This document shows positions 3,667-10,609 of a stretch of 30,063 bases of DNA, piece after piece (position 1 is the first letter of the stretch; the number at the start of each line of letters is the position of its first letter). The DNA is from a virus: the IMG/VR virus record IMGVR_UViG_3300010883_000274, positions 1 to 30,063 of that record; one strand, given 5' to 3'. Under the pieces are notes generated by a model that saw only the letters and a list, made by a program, of their open reading frames with translations, was not told where the DNA came from and did not search any database. The translations under genes were made by a program, and so were the position numbers.

Positions 3667-3864
3667 TTAACGATAGGTTTCCATTAGGTCCACTGCCTCC
3701 CGGTACTTGTCGCGCTCACCTTTGAGCTTTTCGACTTCAGCTTCAGACCTCTTAATCTGACTCAACAAGAAATCTATATCCATCCTGACGTGCTCGTAAA
3801 GGTATCCACCATCGCGTTGGTGCCCTTTTATGATGGACACCCTATCTGATTGTTCCTTAGTCAT
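3667..3864 (-). CDS. Small coiled-coil protein, unknown function
   Basis: 65 aa on the - strand. The ATG at 3864 has a strong AGGGGAG ribosome binding site 7 nt upstream, which makes a real gene likely. Residues 30-62 form a heptad-type coiled coil (FLLSQIKRSEAEVEKLKGERDKYREAVDLME). The N-terminal part is polar (HQRDGGYLYEHV). It is the second - strand gene among + strand early genes, convergent with the 67-aa gene and divergent from the zinc-ribbon gene at 3975. Function unknown; an oligomeric regulator or inhibitor would fit. Confidence 0.6.
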   Translation of the reverse strand: MTKEQSDRVSIIKGHQRDGGYLYEHVRMDIDFLLSQIKRSEAEVEKLKGERDKYREAVDLMETYR

Positions 3865-3937
3865 AACATATCTCCCCTCTGAAAGTCAGCAACAGACCAC
3901 AGGTTTTCATTTTTTTGTACAACTGTCAAGTGTTTTG

Positions 3938-4226: not shown

Positions 4227-4297
4227 TTATTAGTGTTCCAACCATTTTGGTAATCTGTTGGATTGTCAAAGTGAGCCACGATTTCTTTAACTCATAA
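4211..4297 (+). CDS. 28-aa membrane micropeptide
   Basis: ATG 4211 has AAGG about 10 nt upstream. The peptide has one hydrophobic segment (LIISVPTILVICWIV) after a short MLGE start and ends with a polar KVSHDFFNS tail. It starts inside the end of the zinc-ribbon gene in another frame and ends 13 nt before the DUF3310 gene. Support is the ribosome binding site, the tight fit between genes and the composition only. Confidence 0.4.
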   Translation: MLGELIISVPTILVICWIVKVSHDFFNS

Positions 4298-4310
4298 AAG
4301 AGGTATTAGA

Positions 4311-4532
4311 ATGAATATGAAAGCAGACCACTACGGACCTAAGCATTACCGAGCCAAGTGCTCAGCTATACAACCCTGGACTTATATCACCTCACATAAT
4401 ATGCAGTTTTGTGAGGGTAACGTCATTAAGTATATAACGCGATGGCGGGAACCGTCCGGAGGTGGCGTTGAAGACCTCCGAAAAGCACGACACTATCTCC
4501 AAAAGTTAATCGATATAGAGTCGGAAGTGTGA
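4311..4532 (+). CDS. DUF3310 protein (T7 gp1.7-like)
   Basis: 73 aa, ribosome binding site AAGAGG 7 nt before ATG. The C-terminal two thirds match the DUF3310 pattern: FCEGNVIKYITRW, then EDLRKARHYLQKLID. In T7 the DUF3310 protein gp1.7 has been reported as a nucleotide kinase; whether this short form has activity cannot be read from sequence. The stop TGA overlaps a GTG start at 4529 (GTGTGA), which suggests coupling to a 52-aa gene. Confidence 0.85.
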   Translation: MNMKADHYGPKHYRAKCSAIQPWTYITSHNMQFCEGNVIKYITRWREPSGGGVEDLRKARHYLQKLIDIESEV

Positions 4533-5059: not shown

Positions 5060-5903
5060 TCTTGAACAGTATGCGGATGACTTCCCAGGTGAAGGGACGG
5101 TTAAATTACACCACTGCAAAGACGGGCGGCATAATGACAGGCTTTATTTAACACGTACAGAAGATGGCAAGGTTGTGGGCTACTGTTTCCACTGTGGTGG
5201 ACGTGGTGTTTACACTCCACAGGCGTGTGACCGGCGAGCACTCAAACTTAAACCAAAACAGCAAGTAACAGACCCATTTAAAGCTTGGGATGTACCGGTA
5301 CTTGATGAGTGGTACACATCAAACAGGTGGCACACACCTGACTTTGGTAAAATACCACTTGACATTCGGAAGTGGTGGTTTTTAGCAGGACTTAACATCA
5401 GTGAATACAAGGACTTAGGAGTTAAATTACTAGACGGTAAGATGCCCGTTATACCGTTGCGTAATGACAACACAACGCGGTCTGCGTTCCCGTCTGAAAT
5501 TACTGGACTAGCTTTACGGACGTTTGACGAGAAGCTACCTAAGTGGATTCTGCTTGGTTCTAAAAGTCAAGCTCCATTTACAATTAAAACGAACCCGCAG
5601 ATTTTAATTCTCACAGAAGATTATTTGAGTGCAGTGCGCTGCAGCAGACTCGGCTCTGCATTGCCCTTGATGGGCACAAATTTATCTACAGAAAACTTTA
5701 AGCAAGTTACAAACTGGTATAAAGAAACGGGCGGGAAGGTTGTTGTTTGGCTGGACAACGATTCTGAGGTAGTTGTTCGTAAAGCTAAACAGCTATATGA
5801 TCGGTTAGCACCGCTTGTAACTTGTGATATAGTTTTGCTGAAAGTTGAGCCAAAGCACTTAACGAACGATTCTGAAATTAAGGAGATCATCAGTGGAGAC
5901 TGA
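5043..5903 (+). CDS. DNA primase (T7 gp4 N-terminal type)
   Basis: 286 aa. ATG 5043 is chosen because GGGAG lies 9 nt upstream; an in-frame TTG at 5010 is less likely. An N-terminal zinc-finger region (HHCKDG, then GYCFHCGGRG, residues about 24-55) is the template-recognition domain of phage primases. A TOPRIM domain follows: LTEDYLSA supplies the catalytic Glu (residue about 186) and VVWLDNDSE the D-x-D metal site (about 235). T7 makes primase and helicase as one polypeptide; here the primase stops and the helicase starts 11 nt earlier in another frame, with AAGGAG inside the primase end. The two probably assemble at the fork as separate chains. Confidence 0.88.
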   Translation: MTTWINLEQYADDFPGEGTVKLHHCKDGRHNDRLYLTRTEDGKVVGYCFHCGGRGVYTPQACDRRALKLKPKQQVTDPFKAWDVPVLDEWYTSNRWHTPDFGKIPLDIRKWWFLAGLNISEYKDLGVKLLDGKMPVIPLRNDNTTRSAFPSEITGLALRTFDEKLPKWILLGSKSQAPFTIKTNPQILILTEDYLSAVRCSRLGSALPLMGTNLSTENFKQVTNWYKETGGKVVVWLDNDSEVVVRKAKQLYDRLAPLVTCDIVLLKVEPKHLTNDSEIKEIISGD

Positions 5904-7146
5904 TATACTACTACTACTATCTAATCTATCTAGATATAAAAGATACTCTTCTCTTATAAGAGAAGAGAGATTAAGTGAAGATATAAGATTTATCTACAAA
6001 GACTTAAACAACTACTTCAACGAGCTTGGTAAAGAGGACGTGGATTGGATTGAATTTAAAGCTTGGGTTATCACCTTGAAGCACCCTTCAATGAACGAAG
6101 ACAGAGTAGCTTTGGTTGATGCGCTTTGCGACAAGCTTCACGCTTCAGGCGCTGTAACGGAAGGTGCCGTCATGCAGAATCTGTCAACCCGTTATTGGGC
6201 TAACCAGATTTCAGAAACAGCTTACAACGTTGTTTTAGGCAAAGCAGACATGCAGGACGTTAAGGAACAAATCAAAGAGTACAATCTTGAAGTTAATGGC
6301 GTTGCTTGGGACTTGGAGAACTTATCACTATCAAATTCAGAACTACTTGAGCAACTTAAAGATTTACGCGACGCGCCCAAATACAACTGGTCAATATCAG
6401 AACTTCAACTCATTCTTGGTCCGATATCCAAAGGTGATTTAATTATCGTGGCCGCACGGCCTGACGGTGGTAAAACTACTTTCCTTGCGACACAAGCAGT
6501 GCATTTTGCTAGTCAACTACCAGAAGGGGAGTGTGTGCTGTGGTGCAACAACGAAGAGGCAGGTTCAAGGATCAGACTTAGGCAAACTCAAGCAGCGTTA
6601 AATTGGACCCGTGAAGAGGTGATGAACGACTTAAACAAAAGTGTTGAGGAGTTCGAGAAGAAAGTTGGGGTTGGTAAGATACAAGTTATGGACAACACCA
6701 GTATGACGGTTCACGACATTGAAGCTGCGATTGAAGCGTGCAGCCCCAAGATTATTATTATTGATCAAATTTGGAAAGTTGGGGGGTTTGAGAAACAGTA
6801 CGGGACGGGGATAGACCGTTACGCTAAACTTGCACAGTACGTGCGTGACCTTGCTAAAAGATTTGGTCCGATCATAGGTGCTTCTCAACTTGACGGTACG
6901 GCGGACGACACAAAATACCCGCTAATGGGGAGCCTGTATGGCAGCAAAACTTCTGTCCAAGGTGAGGCGGACGCTATCCTAACAATAGGACAAAGTAGTG
7001 ATGAGGGTGCTGAGATGCGCTTCCTACGAGCACCAAAGAATAAGTTAAGCTACGCGCACAACGACTTCCGAAGTGCCGGTTGTGCTATCAAAATAGATAA
7101 GGAGCGAGCGCAACTAATATCACTGCTCGGGAACAATCATGCTTAA
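5893..7146 (+). CDS. Replicative DNA helicase (T7 gp4/DnaB type)
   Basis: 417 aa, GTG start with AAGGAG 7 nt upstream, overlapping the primase by 11 nt. Residues 1-150 are a helical N-terminal domain. The RecA-like core starts near 170: Walker A A-R-P-D-G-G-K-T-T (188-196), Walker B I-I-I-I-D (287-291), then GASQLDG and a GSLYGSKTSVQGEADAIL segment typical of gp4-type ring helicases. It would unwind the fork ahead of the polymerase and act with the separate primase. The first 30 codons are unusual: four CTA Leu codons in a row, several ATA and AGA codons, and a 22-bp perfect palindrome at 5946-5967. Confidence 0.9.
   Translation: METDILLLLSNLSRYKRYSSLIREERLSEDIRFIYKDLNNYFNELGKEDVDWIEFKAWVITLKHPSMNEDRVALVDALCDKLHASGAVTEGAVMQNLSTRYWANQISETAYNVVLGKADMQDVKEQIKEYNLEVNGVAWDLENLSLSNSELLEQLKDLRDAPKYNWSISELQLILGPISKGDLIIVAARPDGGKTTFLATQAVHFASQLPEGECVLWCNNEEAGSRIRLRQTQAALNWTREEVMNDLNKSVEEFEKKVGVGKIQVMDNTSMTVHDIEAAIEACSPKIIIIDQIWKVGGFEKQYGTGIDRYAKLAQYVRDLAKRFGPIIGASQLDGTADDTKYPLMGSLYGSKTSVQGEADAILTIGQSSDEGAEMRFLRAPKNKLSYAHNDFRSAGCAIKIDKERAQLISLLGNNHA
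5946..5967. repeat. 22-bp perfect palindrome in the helicase gene
   Basis: CTCTTCTCTT followed by ATAAGAGAAGAG reads the same on both strands over 22 bp. It is inside the helicase coding sequence, about 55 nt after its start, and follows an ACT microsatellite and ATCTAGAT. In RNA it can fold to a hairpin near the start of the helicase message; in DNA it may be a binding site. Confidence 0.7.
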
Positions 7147-8326
7147 CCAACACAATGCTATCATTCTTGATTTGGAAACAACTATCAACGCACCTGCCCC
7201 GCACTTTGGGGCAACTCCAACTTGGCCCACCAACAGGGCAGTGGCTTACGGCTTTCAAGTAGCGGGAGACCCACACGTATACCTACAATCGTCCGTAACA
7301 AGGTTGTTTGAATTGTTTGAGGAACTACCAGACGCTGTGCTTGTAGGGCATAATTTAAGTTTTGACCTGATGTACTTGCTTAAAACAAGTGACCGTGAAG
7401 CCTTCAAACCCCGTCCTTTGTGGGACACTATGAAATTCCACCACATACAAACAGGTAAAGCGGACCCAAACCCCTCGTTAGTCCGCGTAGCACAGTTTTG
7501 GGGTATACCTTTCAAGAAGGACGACGAGATTAAGGAGAGGTTCAAGCTTGGTATAGGAGCAGACCAAATAGATAAGCAACTGCTTTACGAGTATCTTGAA
7601 GCTGATGTGCGCGTAACCGCAGAAATCTTCTACAACCAACACCTGTATGCAAAGGAGCAAGGGGAGCTATGGACTCGGTATGTTTTAGAACTGATGCGAG
7701 GGATCAAGGCAACCTCCGAGATGTCTACCGTTGGGATAAGTTTCAATGTGCTTGGAGCAGCAAGCGAGAAGGCCAAACTAGAGGCTGAGCTACAGGTGCT
7801 TGAGAGTGCCTTCAAAACTAATTGGGAACATTGCTGGCCTCAAGGAGCAGGAACAGACTTCAACCCAAACAGCCCAACGCAGATTGAGACTTTGTTGTGG
7901 GGCGGGGAAGTTAAAATCCCTTATGACCAGGAAGTTTTGAACGAAGATGGTGAGGCTGTGCGATTCAAATCAGGCGCAAAAGTGGGGCAAGTGAAGACTA
8001 AGAAGACAACGAAAGTAGGGATAGTAAACCCTATGGTAACCAACTTGGCACAAGAGCTTTTCAAAAGAAAAGGCTGGGATATGAAGTCCAGCGCACAGAC
8101 GCTACAAAATCTTGTTAAATACGACAAAGCTATCGCCGGAGCTTTCGCCGCGGACATCTTAGAATTGCGGAACAAAGCAAAGACGATCACAACTTACTAT
8201 AAACCATATATAAACTTTGCAAACGAAGGGACGATCCACCCAGCGTACAACCACTGCGTCACGCAAACAGGTAGACTCAGTTCCTCCAAGCCCAACATGC
8301 AAAACATCACAAGTAAGGACAAATGA
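7139..8326 (+). CDS. DNA polymerase family A, N-terminal half (3'-5' exonuclease and thumb)
   Basis: 395 aa; ATG 7139 overlaps the helicase stop by 8 nt. The 3'-5' exonuclease domain is intact: Exo I D11-L-E13-T, Exo II LVGHNLSFDL, Exo III YLEAD. The thumb and start of the palm follow, ending with TQTGRLSSSKPNMQNI, the motif that precedes motif A in every family A polymerase. The frame then stops at TGA 8324-8326 after TSKDK. The palm/fingers are in the next gene, one nucleotide further on in the +1 frame. This half alone has proofreading residues but no polymerase active site. Confidence 0.92.
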   Translation: MLNQHNAIILDLETTINAPAPHFGATPTWPTNRAVAYGFQVAGDPHVYLQSSVTRLFELFEELPDAVLVGHNLSFDLMYLLKTSDREAFKPRPLWDTMKFHHIQTGKADPNPSLVRVAQFWGIPFKKDDEIKERFKLGIGADQIDKQLLYEYLEADVRVTAEIFYNQHLYAKEQGELWTRYVLELMRGIKATSEMSTVGISFNVLGAASEKAKLEAELQVLESAFKTNWEHCWPQGAGTDFNPNSPTQIETLLWGGEVKIPYDQEVLNEDGEAVRFKSGAKVGQVKTKKTTKVGIVNPMVTNLAQELFKRKGWDMKSSAQTLQNLVKYDKAIAGAFAADILELRNKAKTITTYYKPYINFANEGTIHPAYNHCVTQTGRLSSSKPNMQNITSKDK

Positions 8327-8327
8327 G

Positions 8328-9158
8328 ATGATTTTAGAGTACTTCACAGCCCGACCAGAGCATGTTTTAGCGGAGTTTGACTACAAGCAGCTAGAGGTGA
8401 GGGTATTAGCCCTCGCCAGCAAAGACAAGCAACTCATCAACGATATTAACGCTGGTATTGATATGCACACCTATTTTGCCAGCCAGATATTCAACAAACC
8501 TGAAGGTGATATAACGCCGAAAGAACGCCGAATGGCAAAAGGCTTTTCTTTCCAACTACAGTATGGGGCTGGAGCCAACGGAATATCACGCTTCTGGGAC
8601 GTTTCTAAGGCTCTAGCAGAGGACTTCATAGAAAACTACTACCAGCGATACCCTCAGATACGTTCGTGGCAGGAGGGGGTCCGTGATGAGGCTCACAGCA
8701 CATTAGAATATGCTGGAGATATGCGAGATGGGTGCTCGGTCATGCGGGGTAACATCCCTACGATTTGGAGGAAGCCCGGTGGGCAGACTTTAAGCCATTA
8801 CACAACCCTTACTGAGGAGGATAATAAACCCTCTTGGAAAGATAGCACTCCGCGTTTATCTTATACGAAAATTAAAAACTATCCGATCCAAGGCGCGGCA
8901 TCCGACATCTTAATGCTGATGTTGAACAGGTTGTCTGACTACTTGTGGCAAACCCCAGTTAAATTAATCAACACGGTTCACGATTCTGTCTTGGTTGAGA
9001 TACCAGAAACCGAAATGAGTTACTCGGGGCAAATACTGGAGCTTTTAGAGAGCGTACCTACGGTTTTACAACAAGTGTTTGGTGTGTGCTCCCCGATAGC
9101 CTTCCCTGTGGATTGCGCCTCGGGAAAAACTTTAGCTGAAATCAAAGGAAACAGTTGA
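8328..9158 (+). CDS. DNA polymerase family A, C-terminal half (palm and fingers)
   Basis: 276 aa. ATG 8328 lies 1 nt after the stop of the first half and has its own AAGGA (8315-8319), 8 nt upstream. Motif A is E-F-D18-Y-K-Q-L-E-V-R, motif B R67-x3-K71-x3-F75-x3-Y79-G, motif C T-V-H-D-S. All catalytic residues of a family A polymerase are present. The residue equivalent to E. coli Pol I 762 is Phe (F75). Removing one base at the junction (AAA-T-GAG) joins the halves into a normal 671-aa protein, so the split is clean with nothing inserted. Two subunits made separately, or a recent frameshift, are both possible. Confidence 0.92.
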   Translation: MILEYFTARPEHVLAEFDYKQLEVRVLALASKDKQLINDINAGIDMHTYFASQIFNKPEGDITPKERRMAKGFSFQLQYGAGANGISRFWDVSKALAEDFIENYYQRYPQIRSWQEGVRDEAHSTLEYAGDMRDGCSVMRGNIPTIWRKPGGQTLSHYTTLTEEDNKPSWKDSTPRLSYTKIKNYPIQGAASDILMLMLNRLSDYLWQTPVKLINTVHDSVLVEIPETEMSYSGQILELLESVPTVLQQVFGVCSPIAFPVDCASGKTLAEIKGNS

Positions 9159-9745: not shown

Positions 9746-10609
9746 GTGGCAAACACAATAGCCTTGTTTGACGGTGACATTATAGCCTACCGCGCAGGCT
9801 TCGCTGCAGAGAAGCGGGTTTACTTTGATATACGTAACCCCCCAAAGGAGGGGGGTTCTTTTTTTGGGACAAAGAAAGAGGCTTTGCAAGAGGTAGACAA
9901 AGCGTATGTAGACTACCAACGAAACCTTGAACCGCTTGAGCATGCATTACAAAACGCTAAGTCCCTTATTGACGGGTCTTTAGAATATTTAAGGGAGGCG
10001 CGGGGTGTTCCTGTTAGTGATTATGTGACGTTCCTGTCAGGTAACGACCAAAAGCCTAACTTCAGATATAAAGTTGACCCTGAGTATAAAGCTAACCGAG
10101 ACCCAAAACATAAACCTAGTCACCTCCAAGGGTTAATAGACTATCTGGTGAAGAACCACGAGGGTTACCTCTCGCAAGGGTGCGAGGCGGATGACTTCTT
10201 TGGTCACGCCCAAACAGACGCTATTCGTAAAGGTTTGGTGCCGGTGATAGTGTCTGTTGACAAAGACCTAGCGCAGCTACCGGGGTTGCACTACAATCTT
10301 GTTAAACAAGAGTTAATAGAGATTTCTAAAGAGGAGGCTACCTTAGTCTTTTGGCGACAAATGCTGGAGGGAGACTCCGTTGACAACATAAAAGGTATTG
10401 CTGGTGTGGGAAAGGTCAAGTCTCGACAGTATATACCTGCTAAAACACCCGACGAGAAAGCAAAAAAGATTGTCACAAAATACTATCAAAGGGACCACGG
10501 TGATGGCTGGGAAAAGGAATACAACAAAAACTGCGACCTCTTATGGATATGGCGTAAAATCCCAGACAAATGCCCACACAAAGTCGAGCATACAGCCTTA
10601 CAGGTCTAG
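9746..10609 (+). CDS. 5'-3' exonuclease (FEN/T7 gp6-like)
   Basis: 287 aa, GTG start with GAGAGG 9 nt upstream. N-terminal IALFDGDIIAYRAGF carries the first metal-binding Asp; C146-E-A-D149-D150 and SVDKDLAQLPG are the central acidic motifs; GDSVDNIKGIAGVGKVKS is the helix-hairpin-helix region of FEN-type nucleases. In T7-like phages the enzyme removes RNA primers and degrades host DNA. An intrinsic-terminator hairpin lies inside the gene (9836-9865), coding for RNPPKEGGSFF. The last 107 nt overlap the endonuclease gene in another frame, yet the C-terminal DLLWIWRKIPDKCPH still looks like conserved protein. Confidence 0.88.
   Translation: MANTIALFDGDIIAYRAGFAAEKRVYFDIRNPPKEGGSFFGTKKEALQEVDKAYVDYQRNLEPLEHALQNAKSLIDGSLEYLREARGVPVSDYVTFLSGNDQKPNFRYKVDPEYKANRDPKHKPSHLQGLIDYLVKNHEGYLSQGCEADDFFGHAQTDAIRKGLVPVIVSVDKDLAQLPGLHYNLVKQELIEISKEEATLVFWRQMLEGDSVDNIKGIAGVGKVKSRQYIPAKTPDEKAKKIVTKYYQRDHGDGWEKEYNKNCDLLWIWRKIPDKCPHKVEHTALQV
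9836..9865 (+). terminator. Intrinsic terminator inside the exonuclease gene
   Basis: AACCCCCC (9836-9843), loop AAAGGA, GGGGGGTT (9850-9857): a perfect 8-bp stem with six G-C pairs, followed by C and seven T (9859-9865). It begins 90 nt into the exonuclease coding sequence. By the usual rules it is the strongest + strand terminator in the window. It would stop most transcripts from the promoter at 9155-9182 just after the 168-aa gene unless ribosomes translating the exonuclease keep the hairpin open. Confidence 0.8.

Follow-up and report, generated by a model that had tools for sequence, protein, structure and literature searches.

A probable two-chain family A DNA polymerase encoded by an adjacent, probably coupled gene pair with an old and conserved cut in a phage lineage

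Textbook family A DNA polymerases are single chains. In the window (the whole stretch of 30,063 nucleotides analysed here, positions 1 to 30,063 of the IMG/VR virus record IMGVR_UViG_3300010883_000274) this usual single-polypeptide state, which is not defining for the fold, is absent, and the polymerase is encoded by two open reading frames. The question raised by the locus is whether these frames specify two working chains, a single chain obtained by a programmed frameshift, or an ordinary gene broken by a one-base error, the three readings listed in an earlier note on this DNA. The best reading is an obligate two-chain polymerase made from a translationally coupled gene pair, with the assembly of the chains proposed from comparative sequence evidence and structural modelling. 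We assign a probability of about 0.9 to a two-chain family A replicase produced from such an adjacent, coupled pair, with an old cut that is likely of homing-endonuclease origin.

Gene 1 (7139-8326, plus strand, 395 aa) ends with TGRLSSSKPNMQNITSKDK and stops at TGA 8324-8326, and gene 2 (8328-9158, plus strand, 276 aa) starts at ATG 8328-8330 in the +1 frame relative to gene 1. The junction reads TGA-G-ATG, a single base separating stop and start, and an AAGGA at 8315-8319 is spaced 8 nt from the second ATG. Motifs A, B and C are all found intact within the second frame (DYKQLE at 8379, RRMAKGFSFQLQYG at 8526, HDS at 8979). This layout is as the earlier note described it; however, the joined frames give 672 residues and not the 671 stated there. 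The observed arrangement of stop, start and AAGGA, together with the comparative signal described below, suggests coupled translation of the two genes: ribosomes would terminate gene 1 at the TGA and restart at the ATG one base on, aided by the AAGGA in the last gene 1 codons. The end of the helicase gene and the start of gene 1 also overlap, by the 8 bases 7139-7146, so that helicase, gene 1 and gene 2 may form one coupled translation unit. The features of the region are as follows.

5893-7146, plus strand: DnaB-like replicative helicase with an 8-nt overlap with the gene 1 start (phrog_19, 8e-45)
7139-8326, plus strand: polymerase gene 1, with the 3'-5' exonuclease domain, the thumb and the start of the palm including TGRLSSSKPNMQNI (open reading frame; PF00476 positions 56-134; phrog_9556; N-terminal half conserved in about 50 relatives)
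7169-7177, plus strand: exonuclease motif I (D-L-E), from the sequence and conserved across 12 aligned N-terminal halves
7352-7366, plus strand: exonuclease motif II (N..FD), with N72, F75 and D76 invariant in the same 12 halves
7592-7606, plus strand: exonuclease motif III (Y...D), with Y152 and D156 invariant in the same 12 halves
8267-8284, plus strand: TGRLSS motif, corresponding by phmmer alignment to Klenow to the region of R668 in E. coli Pol I
8315-8319, plus strand: putative Shine-Dalgarno AAGGA for gene 2, within gene 1 codons (duplex energy -5.8 kcal/mol, mean of shuffles -2.4)
8324-8326, plus strand: gene 1 stop TGA, from the sequence
8328-8330, plus strand: gene 2 start ATG, from the sequence; M1 is invariant across 12 diverse aligned C-terminal halves
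8328-9158, plus strand: polymerase gene 2, with the remaining palm and the fingers (open reading frame; PF00476 positions 143-353; phrog_2573 from its start)
8379-8396, plus strand: motif A, DYKQLE, with the catalytic Asp, counterpart of D705 by Klenow alignment; D18 invariant
8526-8567, plus strand: motif B, RRMAKGFSFQLQYG, with R67 and K71 invariant in 12 C-terminal halves
8979-8987, plus strand: motif C, HDS, with the second catalytic Asp; H218 and D219 invariant in 12 C-terminal halves
9746-10609, plus strand: downstream exonuclease gene (phrog_107, 6e-51), in the same gene order as on the MEP401 map

Both halves exceed the Pfam gathering score for PF00476 in the profile segments given above, and in PHROGs they match separate families, that of gene 1 over its whole length, so stand-alone halves are already present in the databases. 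Motifs A, B and C, the TGR motif and the exonuclease motifs are intact in alignments of 12 diverse pairs. The AlphaFold2 structure, predicted for the joined chain only, reached a mean pLDDT of 93 and a pTM of 0.88 with 45 rows; the confidence dips near the cut (77 for block 391-400) and has its minimum at 562-567. By Foldseek, the model matches Bst and Klenow Pol I along the full length, and the joined chain is thus predicted to be a complete Pol I fold. The cut falls at approximately residues 684-690 of E. coli Pol I (phmmer alignment with our own numbering conversion), between R668 in gene 1 and D705 in gene 2, and therefore both chains would build the palm jointly and contact each other in a short helix near the active site. 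Gene 1 would supply the proofreading exonuclease, the thumb and the TGRLSS part of the palm, and gene 2 the catalytic motifs A and C of the palm as well as the fingers, which carry motif B. Since the joined-chain model is confident and both halves are conserved, we infer that the two chains come together in an ordinary Pol I fold.

The dN/dS ratios, 0.02-0.18 for both halves in close pairs and about 0.19-0.26 in the more diverged pair L053/L058, indicate that purifying selection acts on both halves. In principle, a split essential gene might be no more than a remnant in a phage that relies on the host enzyme, but given the strength of this selection, the preservation of all catalytic residues and the completeness of the surrounding set of replication genes, such decay has next to no probability.

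As megablast of the replication region against phage genomes gave no match, relatives were gathered by protein-level scans. The first of these yielded only eight loci, so that alignment-based scans were needed; viral contigs, scanned initially with the second half as query and afterwards with the first, yielded more than 100 loci, and a scan of bacterial and archaeal genomes returned one distant match. Among the viral contigs of the window's clade with a visible junction, 32 of 33 (our count from two scan tables) are split at the same residue, L020 being the exception, and the identical cut is present in deeper relatives (L003, L043, L044, L046, L053-L058, L107, L109, L113, L114, L120). Within the clade, gene 1 ends with KPNMQN-I/V-S/T-G/S-K and a few further residues, and gene 2 starts with M-I-L or similar, about 13-20 residues ahead of motif A. 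Gene 1 has one common short tail irrespective of the presence of an insert, and each split relative examined has retained the start codon of gene 2. Judged by these comparisons, the cut is old and all but fixed in the window's lineage. As a separate observation, in the L003-L051 group (L003:5890-5950; L043, L046, L050, L051) the motif reads TKR, with Lys at the position where TGR has an otherwise conserved Gly.

The forms of the junction include overlaps of four bases (ATGA) and of eight bases (L019), TAATG, TAA and ATG set one base apart, an in-frame stop followed by ATG (L053), and inserted genes. Accordingly varied is the frame of gene 2 relative to gene 1, which is -1 via the ATGA overlap, +1 in the window, L019, L040 and L046, and 0 with an intervening stop in L053 and L054; such variation, together with the intervening genes, excludes a conserved frameshift as well as a one-base error. 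A programmed +1 frameshift at AAA-TGA, yielding a single 672-residue chain as in prfB, draws some plausibility from the one-base separation of the frames and from the stop codon at the shift point with AAGGA just upstream, which resemble the prfB layout. However, close relatives would need a shift of -1, +1 or 0 at the same point, some have TAA instead of TGA or whole genes between the halves, the start codon is retained in each split one examined, and the slip from AAA to AAU would give a poor codon-anticodon match. In frameshifting of the prfB type the shift site and direction should be conserved in homologues, whereas here the direction varies, and we consider this mechanism very unlikely.

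A one-base error, made in sequencing or assembly of a gene that is in truth fused like any other, would agree with the fact that removal of one base joins the frames. A difference of exactly this size separates the polymerase of L020 (2280-2380), which is fused, from its split sister L019: L020 has one base fewer and retains a relic AAGGAGG and ATG. Either a natural re-fusion or an assembly error could have produced L020, and in both cases the difference shows that a single continuous chain is the equivalent of the two halves. Nevertheless, the same cut recurs, in other frames or with genes between and with the start codon kept, in dozens of independent contigs and several deposited phage genomes; the error, to which we give hardly any credence for the window, is already refuted for the lineage by these comparisons.

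The same cut and start codon in relatives, usually accompanied by a ribosome binding site, support instead the remaining reading of the earlier note, a true two-subunit polymerase whose chains meet in the palm. The check on relatives suggested there, for the same split point and ribosome binding site, found the cut in dozens of them and, across 37 loci, a Shine-Dalgarno signal before gene 2 that is stronger than in shuffled sequence (mean -5.4 kcal/mol; KS p ~1e-14, the loci not being independent), so that the pattern goes far past what chance would give. Matches at single loci are mostly modest, and in this comparison no match was found ahead of gene 2 in L021 and L109. The split is real and conserved, and its product is most likely a working two-chain polymerase.

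Nearly identical polymerases may have an empty junction or one occupied by an HNH endonuclease, an MT-A70 methyltransferase or a small unknown gene; four different junctions are found in L021, L022, L027 and L030 despite 95-99% identity of the halves in the pairs compared and very short tree branches. The HNH gene is present in the gap of L022 and six further contigs of that scan (HNH_3, E 3e-13), the methyltransferase in L030 (E 5e-33), an 89-aa gene in L021 and L029, and a 64-aa gene in L052; L002 has a remnant of the last of these at its contig edge. The small junction genes of L041, L042 and the L109-L131 group (L109, L113, L114, L120, L123, L131) have homologues elsewhere in the window, at 3682-3876 or 3667-3864 (minus strand) and at 4296-4511 or 4296-4532 (plus strand), and the halves of ctOsX528 are separated by a gene that carries the annotation R67 dihydrofolate reductase. 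In the complete genome of ct2os315 (L155, MW202796 3000-22000) seven genes, a cytosine methyltransferase and a stomatin-like gene among them, separate the halves over a distance of 3.6 kb, and both halves retain the conserved ends. To judge from such arrangements the halves are ordinary, separate genes, and the junction behaves as an ordinary intergenic site where homing endonucleases and small genes of other kinds come and go. In the window it reads AAGGACAAATGA-G-ATGATT, in L052, the carrier of the 64-aa gene, AAGGACAAATAA-G-ATGAAA, which is the start of the inserted gene, and in L012 AAATGATT with an overlap; the window junction looks like an insert-bearing allele after loss of the insert, that is, a scar.

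The earlier note had argued that, since nothing is inserted, this is not a homing-endonuclease split. The window indeed has no insert, but many close relatives carry junction genes, some of them HNH endonucleases, which makes such an origin likely rather than excluded. The split would have arisen by insertion of a homing endonuclease into the highly conserved DNA between TGRLSS and motif A, as in known split phage genes, and the junction was probably both created and reused by mobile genes.

Split polymerases also occur in isolated phages, namely ICP2, MEP401 and an Alcaligenes phage. The gap contains an HNH gene in ICP2 and MJW, a different small gene in VP41s3, and only nine bases, TAA-GGAATTACT-ATG, in ICP2_2013_A_Haiti and Saratov-12; in the Alcaligenes phage QDWS535 the halves overlap by one base. 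The protein pair is UCR75322 and UCR75321 in QDWS535, and YP_009056262 and YP_009056263 in ICP2_2013_A_Haiti. In RefSeq ICP2 (L068, NC_015158 40112-42680) the polymerase pieces are annotated as joined exons, an annotation that looks wrong, as the insert-free ICP2 isolates show two genes. A self-splicing intron, which this annotation implies and which was suggested for MEP401, is in line with the HNH genes in the gap of several relatives and with the possible true intron nearby in Providencia phage PSTRCR_114. On the other hand, the window, L012, L014 and ICP2_2013_A_Haiti have no room for it (from an overlap to 9 nt) and yet keep the stop and the start, the short tail of gene 1 is identical in type with or without an insert, and seven genes separate the halves in ct2os315. 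A group I intron has sequence between exons that joins them in frame, and the window offers no space for this; we regard the intron as highly improbable. No Rfam intron match was obtained in the window or the inserts, but this silence is weak evidence, as the scan also missed PSTRCR_114. In that phage (L075) the polymerase is interrupted inside PNL/QN, close to the same position, by 748 bases that include an open reading frame, and the flanks look like, and may be, true intron exons. Vibrio phage PhPV1.2 (L078, 919-3352) has an annotated two-frame polymerase with a different cut near the N-terminus (576-nt first frame).

In MEP401, MEP402, QDWS535, ct2os315, L122, L124 and L128 the cut is displaced by about 17 residues towards the C-terminus, to a point a few residues ahead of the catalytic Asp, and two distinct cut points suggest at least two fission events. 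The polymerase is fused in the deeper relatives L051, L134, L136 and L140, which together with L020 indicates that the cut is not obligatory in this enzyme family. A tree built without the junction columns from 39 split and 8 fused rows requires at least four split/fused changes, with two long-branch joins and the root unknown. It is possible, at somewhat less than even odds, that family A replicases were cut at least twice, at two points no more than about 20 residues apart in the segment from TGRLSS to motif A, and that the two-chain state then persisted over long periods because a preferred homing-endonuclease target in an essential gene thereby becomes a free intergenic slot; the halves, then independent, could drift apart, and their amounts could be tuned by translational coupling.

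If the two-chain reading is true, it reveals a natural and widespread Pol I fold whose two chains meet inside the active-site domain, offers an explanation for the split polymerase of OM43 phages, reported so far without one, and corrects the ICP2 exon annotation. It also provides a natural cut point for split-polymerase tools, along with alleles of almost the same enzyme that can be compared without an insert, with one and, in a single case, re-fused, and a caution for annotation pipelines in which such pieces are joined as exons or called frameshifts.

E. coli DNA polymerase I (Klenow), Bst and Taq share the fold and motifs over the whole joined chain and differ from the window enzyme in being single chains. 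The Vibrio phage ICP2 group (Icepovirus, Zobellviridae), about 29-30% identical, has its cut after PNLQNISN with the next start at MSDIK. In the Methylophilales (OM43) phages MEP401, MEP402 and relatives, the family A polymerase is likewise in two frames, with a 77-aa gene in the gap and the cut about 17 residues beyond that of the window, immediately ahead of the motif A strand; for MEP401-type phages the split was reported and an intron suspected, the position of the cut not being placed by the authors (PMC10580990). The order primase-helicase-polymerase-exonuclease-phosphoesterase-RNR of MEP401-type phages and Zobellviridae agrees with the window for the parts checked. Aeromonas phages 25 and 44RR have a replicative polymerase of two chains, the split gp43A/gp43B; in phage 25 the chains 43A and 43B purify together and show activity, and the split was linked to a homing endonuclease in that phage (PMC2988022). 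That enzyme is of family B and its split has been reported in few phages, whereas the window polymerase is of family A. In phage Aeh1 an essential gene of a different enzyme, the 'genes-in-pieces' ribonucleotide reductase nrdA, is cut by the homing endonuclease gene mobE, which is still present, and the halves form an active enzyme (PMC2988022). Searches of the open-licence literature turned up no experiments on a naturally split polymerase of family A. As in genes-in-pieces, one ancestral gene, represented by the fused outgroups L051, L134, L136 and L140, is found here as two frames with their own starts and stops, and a homing endonuclease stands at the cut in some relatives (L022 type, ICP2, MJW), with none in the window. 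Most likely, the window polymerase belongs to this known kind, and what is new is the Pol I fold, the large phage lineage, and the junction serving as a repeated gene slot.
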